Shown here: positions 14,501-63,500 of the stretch, in pieces
How positions within the stretch are numbered: the stretch's first letter is position 1
How the letters are laid out: each line of letters begins with the position of its first letter
Source of the DNA: a virus
DNA: 64,000 nucleotides
Virus record (IMG/VR): IMGVR_UViG_3300007512_000008
Coordinates: 62,001 to 126,000 of that record
Reading direction: 5' to 3' (one strand)
Program-made: the position numbers and the translations under genes
Notes under the pieces: model-generated
What the model saw: the letters and a program-made list of their open reading frames with translations, nothing else
Told to the model about the DNA's origin: nothing
The model's database searches: none

Positions 14501-15646
14501 ATGCCTCTTCAGTGTCCTGTGTGCTCTCGGAACGGGTTCAAACGACTCACGCGCCACTTGAAACAGGCCCATTCTCTTTCGAAGCCTGAGGCCCTTGCGC
14601 GCTATCCGGGGCTGGTCTTCGAGGAACCCCTTCCTTCTCGGGAGATTCCCTGCTCAAGCTGCGGGGAGATCGTTCCTGGGGTTTCCCCGCGTGCGACCTA
14701 CGTCAAGTGCGAGAAGTGTCGAGTCCCCCCATACACAGGACCCCAGGTATCCTGCGCACTATGTGGAATCTCCCGAAGGAGTCTTCGGAACCACCTCAGG
14801 GCGTCTCATGAGTTGACACCGGACCAGTATCGTGCCAAGTATCCAGGAGAACCCGTAGAGGTTCCTGGGATCCGAAAGAAGTCTCCAGAGACCCGCACCA
14901 AGATGTCTGCCGGAGCTACTCGTCGGTGGTCCGACCCTGAGAAGAGAGCAGAGCAATCCGCTAAGCTGAAGCAGGTAGCTCCCTGGAAGGGGAAGAAGCT
15001 ATCTCCAGAGCATAGGGAAGCCATATCCAAGGCTGTCACAGGGTGCGACTACAACCTATCGGAAGAGGGGCGTAGGATCCGAGCAGAGTGTGGTCGGCGT
15101 GCTCTTGAGAAGATTCGCCAGAGACCTGGATATTGGGAGCGCGTTCGGAAAGGCCAGAAGGAGTCTCGTGCAAGAAGAGCTCGGGAGGGAACTCTCTATT
15201 TCCCAAACGGAAGAGGGATATCCGGGATCCGGAAGGATGTTGGACACTTCACCAGGTCTACGTTGGAGGCCAACTTTTCCCGGGTTCTCCTCCTCAACAA
15301 GATCCCCTACCAATATGAGCCGAAGTGCTTTAATCTGCAGATAGGGGGGAACACGGTCCTCTATCTCCCAGACTTCTACCTTGAGGAACCTTTGTCCCAC
15401 GACGGGCGAGTTCTTGTCCCTGCAGGTTGGGTTGAACTGAAAGGTTGGAGACCTAAACCGAGCGATATCCCTTGGATTGCTCAGGAGAAGATAGACGCCC
15501 TGTCCCTTCTGGTAGGGTCTTCAGTAGCCCTGGTGGTCCAATCCGAGCCCTCCTGGACAGATATCCGAGACATTTGGAGACCGCAGATACCCTTGTGGGA
15601 GACGGGACGTAGGAATCTGCGGACGAACCCTCAGATGTTTCGTTGA
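14501..15646 (+). CDS. Free-standing homing endonuclease, zinc fingers + NUMOD3 + PD-(D/E)XK
   Basis: 381 residues. Two C2H2/C2HC-like fingers (CPVCSRNGFKRLTRHLKQAH; CALCGISRRSLRNHLRASH) and a CxxC pair (CSSCGEIV) bind zinc. Residues ~125-180 contain a NUMOD3-type DNA-binding segment (KKLSPEHREAISKA). The C-terminal ~130 residues hold a PD-(D/E)XK nuclease (RSTLEANFSRVLLLNKIPY, LPDFYLEEP, WVELKGW). The nuclease domain matches that of the gene at 34574. It sits between the structural block and pyrC and is probably mobile, cutting an allelic site lacking it. Codons are less GC-biased than in virion genes. Confidence 0.8.
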   Translation: MPLQCPVCSRNGFKRLTRHLKQAHSLSKPEALARYPGLVFEEPLPSREIPCSSCGEIVPGVSPRATYVKCEKCRVPPYTGPQVSCALCGISRRSLRNHLRASHELTPDQYRAKYPGEPVEVPGIRKKSPETRTKMSAGATRRWSDPEKRAEQSAKLKQVAPWKGKKLSPEHREAISKAVTGCDYNLSEEGRRIRAECGRRALEKIRQRPGYWERVRKGQKESRARRAREGTLYFPNGRGISGIRKDVGHFTRSTLEANFSRVLLLNKIPYQYEPKCFNLQIGGNTVLYLPDFYLEEPLSHDGRVLVPAGWVELKGWRPKPSDIPWIAQEKIDALSLLVGSSVALVVQSEPSWTDIRDIWRPQIPLWETGRRNLRTNPQMFR

Positions 15647-34064: not shown

Positions 34065-34574
34065 ATGGGAACCGTCTTCGAGCAAGGCCAGGAACTTGGG
34101 CGTGGAGACCTGGATATCTTCACCGAAGACTCCGACGGGAACCCAGTCAATGTCTACGAGATTTCATACTCGATCTACTACGTGGACTCGGACAACGGGG
34201 CTGAAGTTCTCATCGGTCCGGATACCCGAACGCCGGTGAATCCTGAGGTCGGGGAATACTACGCTGCGGTCCGGATTCCCAACTCTGCCGTGGCGGGCTG
34301 CTACCGCATCAGGTGGCGGGTCCGAGAGACTGCTTCCTCATCCCAGGAAGGTGCTGTCCAGGAGTTTGGCGTCGTTGCGGATGTCTCAGGAACGGCAGAT
34401 GTCTACACGACGGCGGTCCGGGACCTGATCAACAAGCTCCGGATCATGACCAGGGACAACTGCCTGGGCGGGGACACCCTGGTGGAAGTGGACGCGGACG
34501 GGGAGATCATCCAGGTGAGCCTCGAGGACTTGTACGAGGCGATTGGGGATATGCCCATGCAAGAGGCATCCTGA
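34065..34574 (+). CDS. Virion protein N-terminal half (N-extein) fused to split intein N-fragment
   Basis: 169 residues. Residues 1-132 are a beta-rich structural protein (SYSIYYVDSDNGAEVLIGPD; GCYRIRWRV) ending LINKLRIMTRDN. At C133 an intein block A begins (CLGGDTLVEVDADGEI), then SLEDLYEAIGDMP, and the protein ends 37 residues later. This short N-fragment resembles atypically split inteins of viral terminase genes, whose N-part is only ~25-40 residues. Its stop and the next start overlap (TGATG). The rest of both intein and host protein is encoded at 35493, after an endonuclease gene. Confidence 0.85.
   Translation: MGTVFEQGQELGRGDLDIFTEDSDGNPVNVYEISYSIYYVDSDNGAEVLIGPDTRTPVNPEVGEYYAAVRIPNSAVAGCYRIRWRVRETASSSQEGAVQEFGVVADVSGTADVYTTAVRDLINKLRIMTRDNCLGGDTLVEVDADGEIIQVSLEDLYEAIGDMPMQEAS
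34461..34571 (+). other. Split intein N-fragment (37 residues)
   Basis: Starts at the nucleophile C1 (codon 34461-34463) and contains only block A (CLGGDTLVEV) plus a short helix (LEDLYEAI). Block B is on the C-fragment, so the break falls between blocks A and B rather than at the usual endonuclease position. Confidence 0.85.
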
Positions 34575-35506
34575 TGCCAAGACCCGCGACACCCCCCAAA
34601 GACCCGCCTCCGGAGATCGTCCCGTACCTGGAGAAGCATGAGATCAGTTGGGAGTTGTTCTCGCGCAGGATGGTCCGTGATCCCGAGGTGAAGAGGATTC
34701 GAAGCGAAGTGGTTACCGAACTCCACCAACAGGGGAAAACCTGGGCTCAGATGACAGCTCTCACTTCTTTCGGCGCGGGGCAGCTGAGAGGGTACACCCG
34801 TGCGGTAGGTTGTGTGGCCTCCCGAAAAAACCTGAGCGAAGCGGGAGCACGTTCTGGCAGGGCCCGAAAAGGGGAGAAGAAGCCATGGTTTTCCAAGCAG
34901 ATGAAGGAGAGATGGGAGAAGGGAGAATTCGACTTCCATAGAGGGAGGGTGCGTTCGGAGGAAGAGAGGCAAGCTCTCAGGGATTCTTGGACTCCAGAGA
35001 GGAGAGCAGCGTTTTGCCGAACCATGACGGAACGTTGGGCAAACCCGGAATTCCGGCAGAAGTTGGAAAGATTCCATCAGGACCCAAAGACACGTATGGA
35101 GAGATCCGCACGGCAAGCAGCAGCTATCAAGGCGGATCCCCAGAAATGGTCTTGGGGGAAGGGTTCCCGGGTACGCAGCACCAAATCGGATAGAGCGAGG
35201 TTTTGGGTTCGAAGCACCTTTGAGACCGCTGCTGTCCGGCTATTGGAAGGGGATGTCCAGGTTGCCAGCTACGAGTACGAGCCTGTTTTCAAGGATGAGG
35301 CAGGCCTCACAATTTTGCCAGACTTCAAGGTGGTCTTCACAGACGGGTCATGGAAGATTGTCGAGGTGAAAGCAAGTTGGGTTCTTAGACTCCCCCCAGA
35401 ACACCCCAAAGCCCAGAAGCTCGCGCGTTACCGCCGGTTAGCAGAGCGGCTGGGGGTGTCTTTCGAGATTTGGACAGAACAGGACGTGCTCCATGATCAC
35501 CTCTGA
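34574..35506 (+). CDS. Homing endonuclease, PD-(D/E)XK, inside split-intein gene
   Basis: 310 residues from the ATG overlapping the upstream TGA. The N-terminus is Pro-rich, then a helical DNA-binding region with repeated basic units (MKERWEKGEFDFHRGR; RQALRDSWTPERRAAF; MTERWANPEFRQKLERF). The C-terminal nuclease has RSTFETAAVRLLEGD, ILPDFKVVF and WKIVEVKASWV, giving the PD...ExK triad. The same nuclease occurs in the gene at 14501. It overlaps the C-extein gene by 14 bases. By analogy it would cut intein-less alleles of this virion gene and spread the cassette. Confidence 0.85.
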   Translation: MPRPATPPKDPPPEIVPYLEKHEISWELFSRRMVRDPEVKRIRSEVVTELHQQGKTWAQMTALTSFGAGQLRGYTRAVGCVASRKNLSEAGARSGRARKGEKKPWFSKQMKERWEKGEFDFHRGRVRSEEERQALRDSWTPERRAAFCRTMTERWANPEFRQKLERFHQDPKTRMERSARQAAAIKADPQKWSWGKGSRVRSTKSDRARFWVRSTFETAAVRLLEGDVQVASYEYEPVFKDEAGLTILPDFKVVFTDGSWKIVEVKASWVLRLPPEHPKAQKLARYRRLAERLGVSFEIWTEQDVLHDHL

Positions 35507-35882
35507 GACCAGAAACAGGATTCGCGCCGCTTTCTCAGTGGGTCGGCTGAAGACCCGCACCGTCTCTCCGGAAGGGAAGGGACGTTGGCAGCGTGTTCTG
35601 AAAGCATCCAAGATGGAGATTCCAGATTCTTTGGATTGCCTGGAGGTCTCTACTTCCAGGGGGTCTATGATCCTCACGGAAGACCACAGGGTTTTCACGG
35701 CACCCACTGAGAAGACAGAGGCGAGGAATCTGGAGAAGGGATCTCCTGTGCTGGGGTCTGGGGGCCTGCTGATCCTGGTGACTCAGGTCCGGGCTGCCCC
35801 TCGCGAGCGCTTCATGTTCGACATCACCGTGGAGGGGGATCACAACTTCATTCCCGTGGGGTCTGGGGTCGTGGTGTCAAAC
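35493..35882 (+). other. Split intein C-fragment (130 residues)
   Basis: Contains block B (TEDH), block F (FDITVEGDHNF) and block G (VVVSN followed by C). It begins with its own ATG, and its ribosome site is inside the end of the endonuclease gene. Confidence 0.85.
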
Positions 35883-36383
35883 TGCCCCGACAAGCACTAC
35901 AAGTTCCGTCCTCCTGAAGGAACGGAGACCGTGGGCTGCTACAACCAGGTCTTTGGTTATATCTGGACTGACGAGGAGCTTGCCCAGTATCTCGAGATGG
36001 CCCTCTGGAAGTGGAACCTCTACCCTCCGGACACTTCTGCCAAGTGGACCACGGTCGACAAGGTGTACAAGGGGAAGCAGGGTTGGAGATCAGCTCTCCT
36101 GTGGGGAGCTCTGGTCTTGGCCGCCCAGGCTCTCAGCTTCCAGTGGGTCGCGAATGAGTTCGGCTACAGCATCGGAGGAATCAGCCTCGATCTGGAGAAG
36201 TCCTCCAAGTACCAGGCCCTCCGGGCGGACGCCGAGGCTCAGTGGACTCAGCTCACAGAGGCGAAGCAGCGTACCGAGAAGTACATGCGGGGCTTGGCCC
36301 AGCCCAGGTTCGGCAGGGGGGTGAGGTCGGCCTTTGGTCCACATGTGGGAGCGGGAATTTTGTCTCCACGGTCATTCATCTAA
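35493..36383 (+). CDS. Split intein C-fragment fused to virion protein C-terminal half (C-extein)
   Basis: 296 residues. Residues 1-130 are the intein C-fragment: block B (GSMILTEDHRVFT, with the T-x-x-H), then blocks F and G (FMFDITVEGDHNFIPVGSG, VVVSN). Asn130 is the splice residue and Cys131 the +1 nucleophile; the penultimate residue is Ser rather than the usual His. Residues 131-296 (CPDKHYKFRPPEGTE..., WTDEELAQYLEMALWKWN) are the rest of the virion protein, with a helix-rich end (SKYQALRADAEAQW). Trans-splicing with the 34065 product is needed for a full protein. Confidence 0.85.
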   Translation: MITSETRNRIRAAFSVGRLKTRTVSPEGKGRWQRVLKASKMEIPDSLDCLEVSTSRGSMILTEDHRVFTAPTEKTEARNLEKGSPVLGSGGLLILVTQVRAAPRERFMFDITVEGDHNFIPVGSGVVVSNCPDKHYKFRPPEGTETVGCYNQVFGYIWTDEELAQYLEMALWKWNLYPPDTSAKWTTVDKVYKGKQGWRSALLWGALVLAAQALSFQWVANEFGYSIGGISLDLEKSSKYQALRADAEAQWTQLTEAKQRTEKYMRGLAQPRFGRGVRSAFGPHVGAGILSPRSFI

Positions 36384-36448: not shown

Positions 36449-37966
36449 ATGCCCATCATCTGTCCCCATTGCTCACGTAGATTCAAGGGCACATCGATCA
36501 ATTCCAGGCACAAACGTGTCTGTGCCGGATGGCCGAACCCACCCTCTCCGATCCCCTGCCTGTGCGGCCATGAATCCACTTCATCTACCCAGATGAAGCG
36601 CCACCGTCGGACTTGCTTTACATGGCAGTCTCGGGACAAGAAGGCAGTGGCCCAGGCGCGGAAGCGGGAGACCTCTCTTCGGAGGCACGGGGTCGAGAAC
36701 GGTTCTCAGGCCCCTTCTGTGCAGGCACGACGTGCTGCGACCAACCTCGAGAGATACGGACACACCAATCCGGGAGCCTCAGAGCAGGCCAAGGCCAAGA
36801 TCCGACAGACCAACCTGGAACGCTATGGCGTAGAGCATGTCACCTCATCTCCGGAGGTTCAGGCTCGGATGCGGGAGACCCTACGGAGGAATCATGGGGT
36901 CGGCAACCCGTTTGAGTCCCCGGAGGTCCAGGCCAAGATCCGAGCTACGATGCTCGAGAGGTACGGAGTTGAGAATCCCCAGCAGTGTCCGGAGATCCGA
37001 GCCCGCACGACAGCTACGTGCAAGGCCCGTTACGGAGGCAGGCTTCTTGCTTCTCCGGAGATTGCTGCGAAGGCTCGAGCCACGAACCTGGAACGCTACG
37101 GGGACGAGGTCCCTCAGCGCACTCCCGAACTTCGGGAGAGGACCCGCCAGACCAACATGGAGAGGTACGGAGTCCCCTGGACCTGCATGGACCCAGAGGT
37201 CCGAGCGAAGCAGCTGGCGACGCACCACAAGAGGTATGGGTCCCACTACTTCGCCTCAGAGGAGGGCAAGGCCCAGATTCTCGCATCTTTCCGAGAGAGG
37301 TATGGGGTCGATCATTGGATGCAGGCTGAGGGGGCGTGGGACAGGCTCGTCGCCGTGTTCCAAGAGAGATACGGAGTCGACCATCCTCTTCAGCTCGCAG
37401 AGTTCCTGGAGAAGCGCGTCCGGACAACCCAGGCCCGCTATGGCGTGGACCACGTGCTTCAGGACGTGGAAATCATGGCCCGTCTCCAAGCCACGAACAT
37501 GGAGAGGTATGGCCACCCCTTTGCGATGCAAAACAAGGAGGTGAGCAGTAGGATGGTTGCCACCAAGATCGAACGGTACGGAAATCCCTGGGGACCCTCT
37601 CCGGTAGACGGACCCAACGGTCTGGAACAAGCCGTTCATGCCCTTGCCCCAGAGGGATCCCTCCTATTCACAGGGGATTTCACGTTCTGGAGATGGCTGC
37701 CAACACTCTCCAAGCACAAGAACCCCGATTTCATCGTTCCGGGACCTGATCCGGACCATCCCAAGCGGGGAGTCACGAAGGTCGTAGAAGCGTTTGGCGA
37801 CTACTGGCACAGCCGGATGTTCACGGGAAAGGTGCCGTTCGCCCACGAGCAGGAGCTCATCTCCGCCTATCAAGAGGTCGGTATCGAGTGCCTGGTCGTC
37901 TGGGAGTCCGAGGTCAACTCAGAGCCTGAGGGAGTTCAAGCCCGGCTGGCCAAGTTCCTCTCGTAG
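36449..37966 (+). CDS. Vsr-like homing endonuclease with ~12 ERYG repeats
   Basis: 505 residues. Two N-terminal zinc knuckles (CPHCSRRFKGTSINSRHKRVC; CLCGHESTSSTQMKRHRRTC) precede about a dozen ~26-residue repeats of the type RATNLERYGVENPxxSPEVQ (residues ~70-390), probably a modular DNA-recognition array. The C-terminal domain has NPDFIVPG, KVVEAFGDYWHS and a final CLVVWESEV, resembling Vsr/EDxHD-type nucleases known from phage homing genes. It starts 65 bases after the fractured virion gene, so it may be a second homing element at the same site. Confidence 0.75.
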   Translation: MPIICPHCSRRFKGTSINSRHKRVCAGWPNPPSPIPCLCGHESTSSTQMKRHRRTCFTWQSRDKKAVAQARKRETSLRRHGVENGSQAPSVQARRAATNLERYGHTNPGASEQAKAKIRQTNLERYGVEHVTSSPEVQARMRETLRRNHGVGNPFESPEVQAKIRATMLERYGVENPQQCPEIRARTTATCKARYGGRLLASPEIAAKARATNLERYGDEVPQRTPELRERTRQTNMERYGVPWTCMDPEVRAKQLATHHKRYGSHYFASEEGKAQILASFRERYGVDHWMQAEGAWDRLVAVFQERYGVDHPLQLAEFLEKRVRTTQARYGVDHVLQDVEIMARLQATNMERYGHPFAMQNKEVSSRMVATKIERYGNPWGPSPVDGPNGLEQAVHALAPEGSLLFTGDFTFWRWLPTLSKHKNPDFIVPGPDPDHPKRGVTKVVEAFGDYWHSRMFTGKVPFAHEQELISAYQEVGIECLVVWESEVNSEPEGVQARLAKFLS

Positions 37967-60532: not shown

Positions 60533-63500
60533 ATGCCTCGCAACGTAAACCCAGCGGGCATCTCAACCGGAGGTGGGACTGTTGCCCCGAACTCCGTAGA
60601 GGACTCCTCTCTTCGGAATCATCTACGGGATACCCGGCCTCTCGAAGCCCACGTCAATGATCCTTCCGAATCCCATATGGCGGTCACGGTTCGGATCACT
60701 GATAGTGGGGGGATGTACACATCGGATGAGGTAGAAGGAGCCCTGCAGGAGATCGGAGCAGGCCAGTCTGGAGGCCGGACCAACGGGTGGCTCCAAGGCG
60801 GGACTTGGACGGCGGTTGGGAACACCCTCACTCTGGACACCCCTTCCCTGGCTCTGATCGGATCCTCTGAGGTCTCGTTCTCCGGGTCCAGCATCGCCCT
60901 GCCTGATGGGACCCGCTGGGTTTACATCGACGCGACCACCGGGAACCTGACCTCGGATACCGTCGCTCCCAACCTCGTCAACGAACCCATCCTGGTAGGT
61001 CTGGTTGTGACTACCGGCGGGGTCATCAATGTCCTGACAAGCACGGACGCGCGGTTCTTCGTCTCCCAACTGGACCGGAAGCCTGCTCTCACTCTCCGAG
61101 AGACAGGAGGCACCAATGCCACGGCAGAAGGATGCTTCGTCACTCTTGAGGCGGCGCTCCTGTACCTGCAGACCTATGCGGCAACTGGAGCCTCTGAGGC
61201 GGAGACCCAGACGATCGTGGTTCGAGGGCCAATCACTCTGCCCACTACGGTGACGATTCCGGTTCCTGGGATCCGATTCGTCGGGGATGGAGAGGATGCC
61301 GCTTTTGTCACAGGGGCGACCCTCAACCCCATGTTCGATGTAGACGGGGTCACCAATACCCAGTTCCTCGACCTGACCTTCCGAGCAGACCACACCGGAT
61401 CCATCGCTGTTGCCAGTACGGGATCCCCCGTTCTGAGCTTCCGCATGGAGCGCTGTCGGGTCATCTCCGGAGCTCAGGACTGGGACATCGGGGTGAACTT
61501 CCCGGACGCGACGGCCGTAAACACCGCGACTATCCGCGACTGCTTGTTCGAAGCGGATACTCGGGGAATCCTGATCGATCGAGCGCACGATACTCTCGTA
61601 GAGCACACCCGGATCATTGAAAAGGGTGCTGCCGGGGTCTCCGGAATCGAGCTCAACCTCTCCGGCCCCTTTGCCGGAGAGGGGAACAACCATATCCGTG
61701 CCTGTCGGGTCTCGGGCTTCACGACCGGGGCTTCTCTTACCGGAGATGGCTCTACAATCTCCAGCACAACCCTGGAAGGCTCGAACATCGGTCTGCGTCT
61801 GGATGGAGGGGAGACCTCGGCAACGGATCTCCAGATCCTCCTGAGCTCTACCACTGGAGTGGACGGGATTCTCGCTGACGGTATTCCTTCCATCACCGGA
61901 TGTTCGATCAACTGCCCTCGTACTGTCTGGGCCGCAGAGAACCCCCAGGGCATCACTGTCCTCGCAACGGCCTCGAAGGCTCGGATCACTGGGAACAACA
62001 TCTACGGTTTCGAGAACGCCACCTCTGGGTCCGGAATCCAGTTCTCGGCTTCCTCCATCCAGAGCATCCTCTCCGGGAACACAATCACGAACTGCACGGA
62101 CGGGATCCACTGCCTTCCCGGTGTCCTGAACTGTGCGATCAACACGAATACGATCTCCGACTGCAACGTGGGTATCCGAGTCGAGGGGAACGACATCGAT
62201 ACTCAGAGGTCTTCGAATATCTCCATCGTCGGAAACCTCGTCACCGAGTCCGGAGAGACGGGCATTCTCCTCGTAGGGGAGATCCTGGACACCAGCGTAG
62301 AGGGGAACATCGTAGATGGGGCCATCCCGGGCTCAGAGACCGATCCCACGTCCAATGGCATCCTTGTTTCGGCAGCCAACGCGAACCTCCCTTCCCGAAT
62401 CCAGGTGGTCAACAACCTCGTCTGGCGCTGCACTTCGGGGATCGAAGCCAGAGGAACCAACGCGACCCTGCAGGTGGCTGAGATCAGCATCCAGGGGAAC
62501 ATGGTCCACCACTGCGCCTTCCCGGAGAACATTTCGGGCGTCACCAACACCTATGACGGGAGGGGCTCCAAGGGTATCGGGCTGGAATGGTGCTCAAAGG
62601 CCCAGGTTATCCAAAACAACATCCACAAGATCGGCACGGGCATTGACAACTCCGAGGTGGAAGCCTTCCCGAACGGGGGCGGCGCCATCCGAGATGTACA
62701 GTCCATCAGCATCTACGCGCGGAACTGTGATCGGCTCTCTGTAGACGGGAACGACGTCCGGGATAGTGTCGCTCTGGACTTCAACACCACGGGATTCCCT
62801 CTCGCTCACGGGATCTTCATCGAGGTCAACTCGGTCGCAACCGGAGCCGACTTTGAGGCGAACGACTACTCGATTTGCGACAACCAGATCACCTGGGCGG
62901 CCATCCTTCCGGGGGTCGCTGGGGGCGGGGAGCGGGGGATCTCCCTTGAGGTCACGGCTGGGAGCGATTCGGACACCAACCTCCTCCGGTTCGTGAAGAC
63001 CTCTGGGAACATGATCCGCCGAACCCGGCGCAGCGGCATCCGATACATCGTCTCCGGAAGCGTCGCGGGAGGAAGCTCCGGGATCCTTCATGCCCAGATC
63101 AACGACAACATGGTCTGGAACGCCTGCGGCCAAGCAGCCCTCGTAGGGGAAAGCCAGGGTGGTATCGTCATCGAAGCCCTCGGAACAGGGACTGGCGACC
63201 CAATGGAGATCGTCGACTTCCTCGTCCAGGGGAACATCCTGGAGAACATCGGATCCCTCGCGGCGACCGACGGAACTGGTATCCTCTTCGCTCTCTTCCG
63301 AGAGGCCAATCTCCGGGACATCTCGGTAGTTGGGAACAAGGTCACCGATGCGAAGGACTACGGGATCTTCCTCCGGGTGGATTCTACCATCACAGGAGGA
63401 CCCTCCAACCTGGATCGCTGGCTCATCTCAAACAACACCGTCCGGAACACAGACTTCACTGGCATCTTGGCGAACGCAGACGGGGCCGGAGTAGGTTCCG

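Follow-up and report, generated by a model that had tools for sequence, protein, structure and literature searches.

A probable mobile, atypically split intein in a head-tail-connector-like gene of a huge phage

The gene described here lies in a window of 64,000 nucleotides, positions 62,001 to 126,000 of the IMG/VR virus record IMGVR_UViG_3300007512_000008, and is fractured into two genes, each encoding part of one phage protein (an extein) together with part of a split intein, with a nuclease gene standing in the break. The insertion site occupied in the window is called site A here, as opposed to a second site in the same gene family, site B. The features of the locus and the grounds for their assignment are as follows, in window positions.

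34065..34460, + strand: N-terminal extein (N-extein), 132 residues, ending ...KLRIMTRDN; a BppU-N-like beta-sandwich module plus one helix
34461..34571, + strand: N-terminal intein part (IntN), 37 amino acids (aa), with Cys1 and block A CLGGDTLVEV, ending ...LEDLYEAI; hidden Markov model (HMM) of other site-A IntNs
34574..35506, + strand: TnsA-like PD-(D/E)XK nuclease gene, 310 aa, putative homing endonuclease; PF08722 and the alignment of site-A nucleases
35493..35882, + strand: C-terminal intein part (IntC), 130 aa, with block B TEDH, block F MFDITVEGDHNF and block G GVVVSN; HMM of other site-A IntCs, and TIGR01443
35883..36380, + strand: C-terminal extein (C-extein), Cys+1 plus the remaining 165 residues of the connector-like protein; homology to the unbroken homologue L006

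The split intein

The product of the first gene (34065-34574) is 169 aa long, 132 of extein and 37 of IntN, the latter reading CLGGDTLVEVDADGEIIQVSLEDLYEAIGDMPMQEAS before the TGA stop. The ATG of the nuclease gene, at 34574, lies within the TGATG that closes the IntN gene, and its stop ends at 35506, overlapping by 14 bases the IntC gene, whose ATG is at 35493. In this third gene (35493-36383) IntC ends ...GVVVSN and is followed by C131, which opens a C-extein of 166 residues; joined at N132/C131, the exteins give a product of 298 aa. The TGATG coupling, the overlap, the junction and the length of the joined product are all as the initial annotation had placed them. The two extein genes are in one phase, and read-through is excluded by the nine stops that this phase contains between them. 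The fractured gene occurs only once in the 126-kb virus record, and the locus has no match to a self-splicing intron in Rfam at the gathering threshold.

HMMs of IntN and IntC were made from other loci, with the window and the related phage LR745208 excluded, and were run on 1451 six-frame fragments of the window. They recovered the two halves that had been proposed as an intein and nothing else: the window IntN was found at E 1.6e-13 (next best 1.4) and the window IntC at E 9e-38 (next best 4.5), while shuffled controls scored E 0.19 or worse. The NCBIfam model of the intein C-terminus, TIGR01443, passes on IntC with 26 bits against a cut-off of 15.6, and the class 1 intein features C1, TEDH, MFDITVEGDHNF and SN|C are found in the window. 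The best PDB sequence match of the joined halves, weak at E 0.019 over residues 2-28, is to CatN (6dsl_A), the engineered consensus of atypically split inteins; a profile built on two sequences gives E 0.56.

In atypically split inteins an IntN of about 15-37 aa and an IntC of more than 100 aa are made as separate polypeptides, and the window has 37 and 130 aa. This size class fits, since GOS-TerL is split 37/115 and AceL-TerL 25/104, with a Cat consensus of 30/104 (PMC11766414); the PolB16 OarG intein is split 15/168 (PMC10189870). By the sizes of its two parts the window intein is of the kind typified by AceL-TerL, GOS-TerL and Cat, as the shortness of its N-part had led the initial annotation to suggest. 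With these inteins and PolB16 OarG it shares the short IntN, the long IntC and a Cys1 or Ser1. Unlike all of these, it belongs to a large clade at one gene, has a connector-like host rather than TerL or PolB, has an IntC of 130 aa, and belongs with inteins whose penultimate residue is mostly Ser.

Unbroken homologues and the host protein

That the two exteins are halves of one protein, as originally proposed, is borne out by unbroken phage homologues that cross the junction, which in them reads RDN|NPDRNY. The unbroken protein is found in L006, L007/L009 and L008 and in about 75 further loci, and junction-spanning homologues reach 68% identity with the window protein. Against L006 the window N-extein shows 62% and the C-extein 73% identity, and the genes upstream of the connector (33028, 33795, 32265) are also homologous to the L006 region, at 53-57% identity. 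At +1, all 51 intact members examined have Asn or Asp, whereas the window and LR745208 have Cys. The latter (LR745208.1, a distant uncultured phage of 485 kb) is broken at the identical residue and has the same three-gene layout, with identities of 43/40/44% for the three genes; Cys1, the T-H of block B, block F and the terminal Asn+Cys are common to the two despite an intein identity of 37%.

The host protein is likely to be a connector, judging from sequence and modelled structure. A homologue in Tunturi_5 is annotated as 'head-tail connector protein', and in the AlphaFold2 (AF2) model of the unbroken L015 residues 1-105 form a well-predicted beta domain and residues 117-129 a helix, followed by a stretch of low confidence from 133 and by a helical domain. 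A Foldseek search of this model in BFVD gave Bacillus phage G gp165 at E 4.2e-8, the list also containing BppU-domain proteins, among them a BppU N-terminal domain protein; a PDB portal-adaptor match reached only 7.8e-3. This one annotation, together with the fold resemblance to phage structural proteins, suggests that it is a virion protein. A second, diverged copy of the connector N-terminal module was seen upstream of the connector gene in L051, L054-L057, L059, L062, L064-L068, L073, L076, L080, L084 and L091.

Several further observations concern the two fractured genes. Asn138 (L015 numbering), near the splice junction, does not vary among the 51 intact connectors; the window has His and LR745208 has Asp at this position. 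The LR745208.1 sequence (L002, L105-L107) holds further intein-like matches, eight of them to PF14890, and the gene directly upstream of its fractured gene (L002:3405-4529), which overlaps the start of the latter by 10 bases, is nuclease-like near its end (YLPDF...) and has no Pfam assignment. Faster extein evolution after fracture was considered and rejected, as there was no consistent effect: relative to the sister, the window C-extein was about 10 points and the N-extein 0.2 points further, and in LR745208 the N-extein 7.7 and the C-extein 3.6.

Alleles and nucleases at two insertion sites

Viral contigs were scanned with a DNA pattern that accepted any of Cys, Ser, Thr, Arg and Trp at +1; the scan favors alleles in which Asn precedes this residue, and gives no frequency estimate. 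It matched 32 contigs, in every case (32/32) in a connector gene. In 30 of them site A holds an intein; the other two, L122 and L120, lack one there but have Ser+1, which may be the scar of a precise intein loss. Among 23 distinct site-A alleles the +1 residue is Cys in 9 and Ser in 14, Cys1 is present in all 22 in which it was read, and IntN measures 29-37 aa. Searches of viral contigs with two IntC alignments found the record of LR745208 only, and are uninformative in that the scan showed them to have missed about 30 alleles. Contiguous mini-inteins occupy site A in L123/L130 and L132. The nuclease is missing there in L119, L133, L144 and L148, and L128 and L147 differ by a 771-bp deletion, with identities of 100% and 99.4% in the sequence to either side; in L147 most of the nuclease is gone, while its C-terminal tail, IntN and IntC are still there.

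The initial annotation had called the gene in the break a PD-(D/E)XK homing endonuclease; a nuclease does lie between the halves, and its family can be refined to TnsA-like. All 17 site-A nucleases match PF08722, with E values up to 0.01 and at best 1.2e-9; the window nuclease does so at E 0.0047 and 17.9 bits, below the Pfam cut-off of 26.5, which the LR745208 nuclease exceeds with 39 bits. E217, PD249-250 and E264-x-K266 (window numbering), which agree with the catalytic E, D and E/Q-x-K of TnsA-like nucleases, are invariant in the site-A alignment, and the gene sits between IntN and IntC in all 17 loci that have one. A profile search found no relatives of the window nuclease in the records of 15 further viral contigs that carry the connector, which makes it an accessory gene. 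We regard it as a putative homing endonuclease that would cut the intein-free allele, to which its tie to one site, its patchy distribution and the deletion alleles point indirectly.

Site B was found in L030, whose connector breaks after EF225 and which has Ser1, Thr+1 replacing Asp and a nuclease of the Vsr-like kind; its IntC is homologous to the window IntC over the full length (BLASTP 2e-10, hhalign 97.4%). Ten distinct inteins occupy this site, all with Ser1 and a penultimate His, and the intein tree places those of site A and those of site B in separate clades (100/98). Each of the four complete nucleases at site B matches REase_MTES_1575, two of them match Vsr as well, and a profile of the four matches the mobile-intron nuclease 3r3p at E 8.5e-4; between the window nuclease and a site-B Vsr-like nuclease hhalign gives a probability of 0.9%. 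Nuclease family is thus tied to site, with 17/17 TnsA-like at A and 4/4 Vsr-like at B. Among 289 ten-residue windows, the two holding the insertion sites show the highest conservation, as expected for homing elements.

Four connectors (L141, L142, L144, L149) have a break at A as well as at B and so consist of three extein genes each. In L120 (L120:25-1463) the site-B IntC gene lies upstream of the IntN gene, an order that no colinear read-through or frameshift could use, and no other connector copy was found in the 113-kb contig. Contiguous mini-inteins are found at site B in L126/L137 and L143, and the intein tree requires four changes between split and contiguous forms, at least three of them forced by well-supported branches. 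In the connector tree the fractured lineages of the window, LR745208 and L030 are separate, each beside empty relatives (three changes), a distribution that horizontal gain and repeated loss both fit. Compared with its empty relative L020, L030 shows about 91% DNA identity gene-wide; to the right of the insertion identity is 71% over the initial 45 bases and 98-100% further out. A short co-converted tract would fit this pattern, but silent changes under nuclease pressure would give the same picture. A further site-B intein, with a Vsr-like nuclease remnant fused in frame to IntC, was seen in a contig binned as Altiarchaeales (L154:4992-6831).

On balance we favor the view that the window represents one allele of a two-site split-intein system, in which sister intein lineages each have, at their own site, their own nuclease family, at least four relatives make the connector from three genes by two orthogonal trans-splicing reactions, and another has the reversed gene order. 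Neither TnsA-like homing nucleases with inteins nor three-gene connectors were reported in the open-licence papers searched.

Next to the fractured gene lies one further feature.

36449..37966, + strand: free-standing DUF7487-type homing-endonuclease-like gene; PF24308 5.6e-81, phrog_3339 homing endonuclease 2.5e-44

This gene is separate from the fractured gene and is not needed for splicing. A DUF7487-type gene lies just downstream of the connector, mostly at 44-92 bp and on the same strand, in the window, L026, L027, L032, L034-L036, L038, L039, L041, L042, L055, L058, L073, L079 and L002; it also follows intact connectors, as a free-standing nuclease in its own right that shares the hot spot. 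Another homing-endonuclease-like gene lies at 14501-15643 of the window (phrog_22215 1.4e-19, phrog_314 2e-6).

Mechanism, alternatives and significance

The intein halves, unbroken homologues, insertion site, patchy distribution, nuclease family and allele series can all be read from the sequences, and lead us to conclude that the locus very probably holds a mobile, atypically split intein in a head-tail-connector-like gene of a huge phage, with trans-splicing and nuclease-driven homing. For the trans-splicing, cleavage specificity, homing and connector role that we infer, the course would be as follows. The two halves would be translated from separate genes, and IntN (37 aa) and IntC (130 aa) would associate; by the class 1 route, a thioester at Cys1 would be followed by transfer to Cys+1 and cyclisation of Asn, and excision of the intein would join the exteins at N132/C131 into one 298-residue protein. 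During co-infection, the TnsA-like nuclease would cleave copies of the gene that lack the intein, within the stretch that is best conserved, and repair would copy intein and nuclease into the empty allele, at the same time swapping the native +1 Asn/Asp for the Cys (or Ser) that splicing needs.

Some observations weigh against this interpretation. The match of PF14890 to the window IntC (E 3e-4) is below the cut-off, and the AF2 model of IntC alone is poor (mean predicted local distance difference test score, pLDDT, 49.6) and gives no structural proof, none of its structure matches, the nearest being 6rpp and VidaL 6vgv, being significant. The penultimate residue of block G is Ser rather than the His of class 1 inteins; the initial annotation had read this residue correctly and singled it out, but it is no oddity, being the majority state at site A (14 of the 23 distinct alleles; the one 'E' in that tally is a shortened L132 entry, the full sequence of which ends VHN). 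A penultimate His is frequent in inteins and not strictly required. Finally, the site-A junction separates two modules, and Bacillus phage G makes the C-terminal one as a protein of its own, gp165, so that at least partial function without ligation is conceivable and the earlier claim that a virion could form only after splicing goes further than the evidence. The same two facts favor the alternative that a homing nuclease broke the gene and that the pieces act without splicing as separate subunits, the intein remnants decaying; this is reported for a phage ribonucleotide reductase gene split by a homing endonuclease gene, cited in PMC10448857. We nevertheless think this very improbable for the connector, given that 23 distinct site-A alleles retain the intein motifs, with Cys1 in 22/22 read, that +1 in these alleles is only Cys or Ser as against Asn or Asp in intact members, and that inteins are kept as well at site B, where the break lies within the C-terminal module.

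It is also very unlikely that the middle gene is a virion nuclease, akin to the T4 gp4 head completion/closure protein, which came to lie there by chance and is no homing endonuclease. Its domain is indeed matched by phrog_218 'head closure' and by the Acinetobacter phage ME3 head completion protein (E 0.02), but the shared TnsA-like nuclease fold accounts for these matches, and a virion nuclease would fit poorly with a gene that has no relative in the 15 other contig records, lies in all 17 loci between IntN and IntC at site A, and is deleted in L147 and missing in four further alleles. That unrelated pieces were united by an assembly or sequencing artefact is hardly credible: the window is one metagenomic contig, and a second contig of the same phage (L005) begins 63 bp past the junction, but the halves are in order, the genes overlap, and the same layout in LR745208 and in many independent assemblies refutes an artefact.

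The probable mobile split intein of the window has counterparts among known fractured genes. Those of Dassa et al. 2009 are said to have a split intein whose halves flank a free-standing homing endonuclease gene, the split being at the usual place and the nuclease Vsr-like/EDxHD. The window resembles them in its intein halves in two genes with a free-standing nuclease gene between, and differs in its atypical split and TnsA-like nuclease, an EDxHD-like nuclease being found only at site B. The site-B nucleases are like the EDxHD/Vsr-like homing endonucleases (PDB 3r3p, 'Mobile intron protein'), and the window's TnsA-like nuclease falls outside that group. In jumbo phage MIJ3 a split intein and a homing endonuclease likewise break up the PolB gene, but there the N-part holds blocks A to N4 (the usual split site), the gene is a polymerase gene and the nuclease is HNH (PMC6892783).

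Within this single gene the connector family shows every state that a homing cycle would be expected to produce: empty, split with nuclease, split with the nuclease deleted, contiguous mini-intein, and empty with Ser+1. These states make two questions testable, namely how inteins become split and why they do so at the atypical position. In addition, more than 20 natural short-IntN inteins with Cys or Ser junctions, and natural two-site pairs in one protein, are candidate orthogonal ligation tools.
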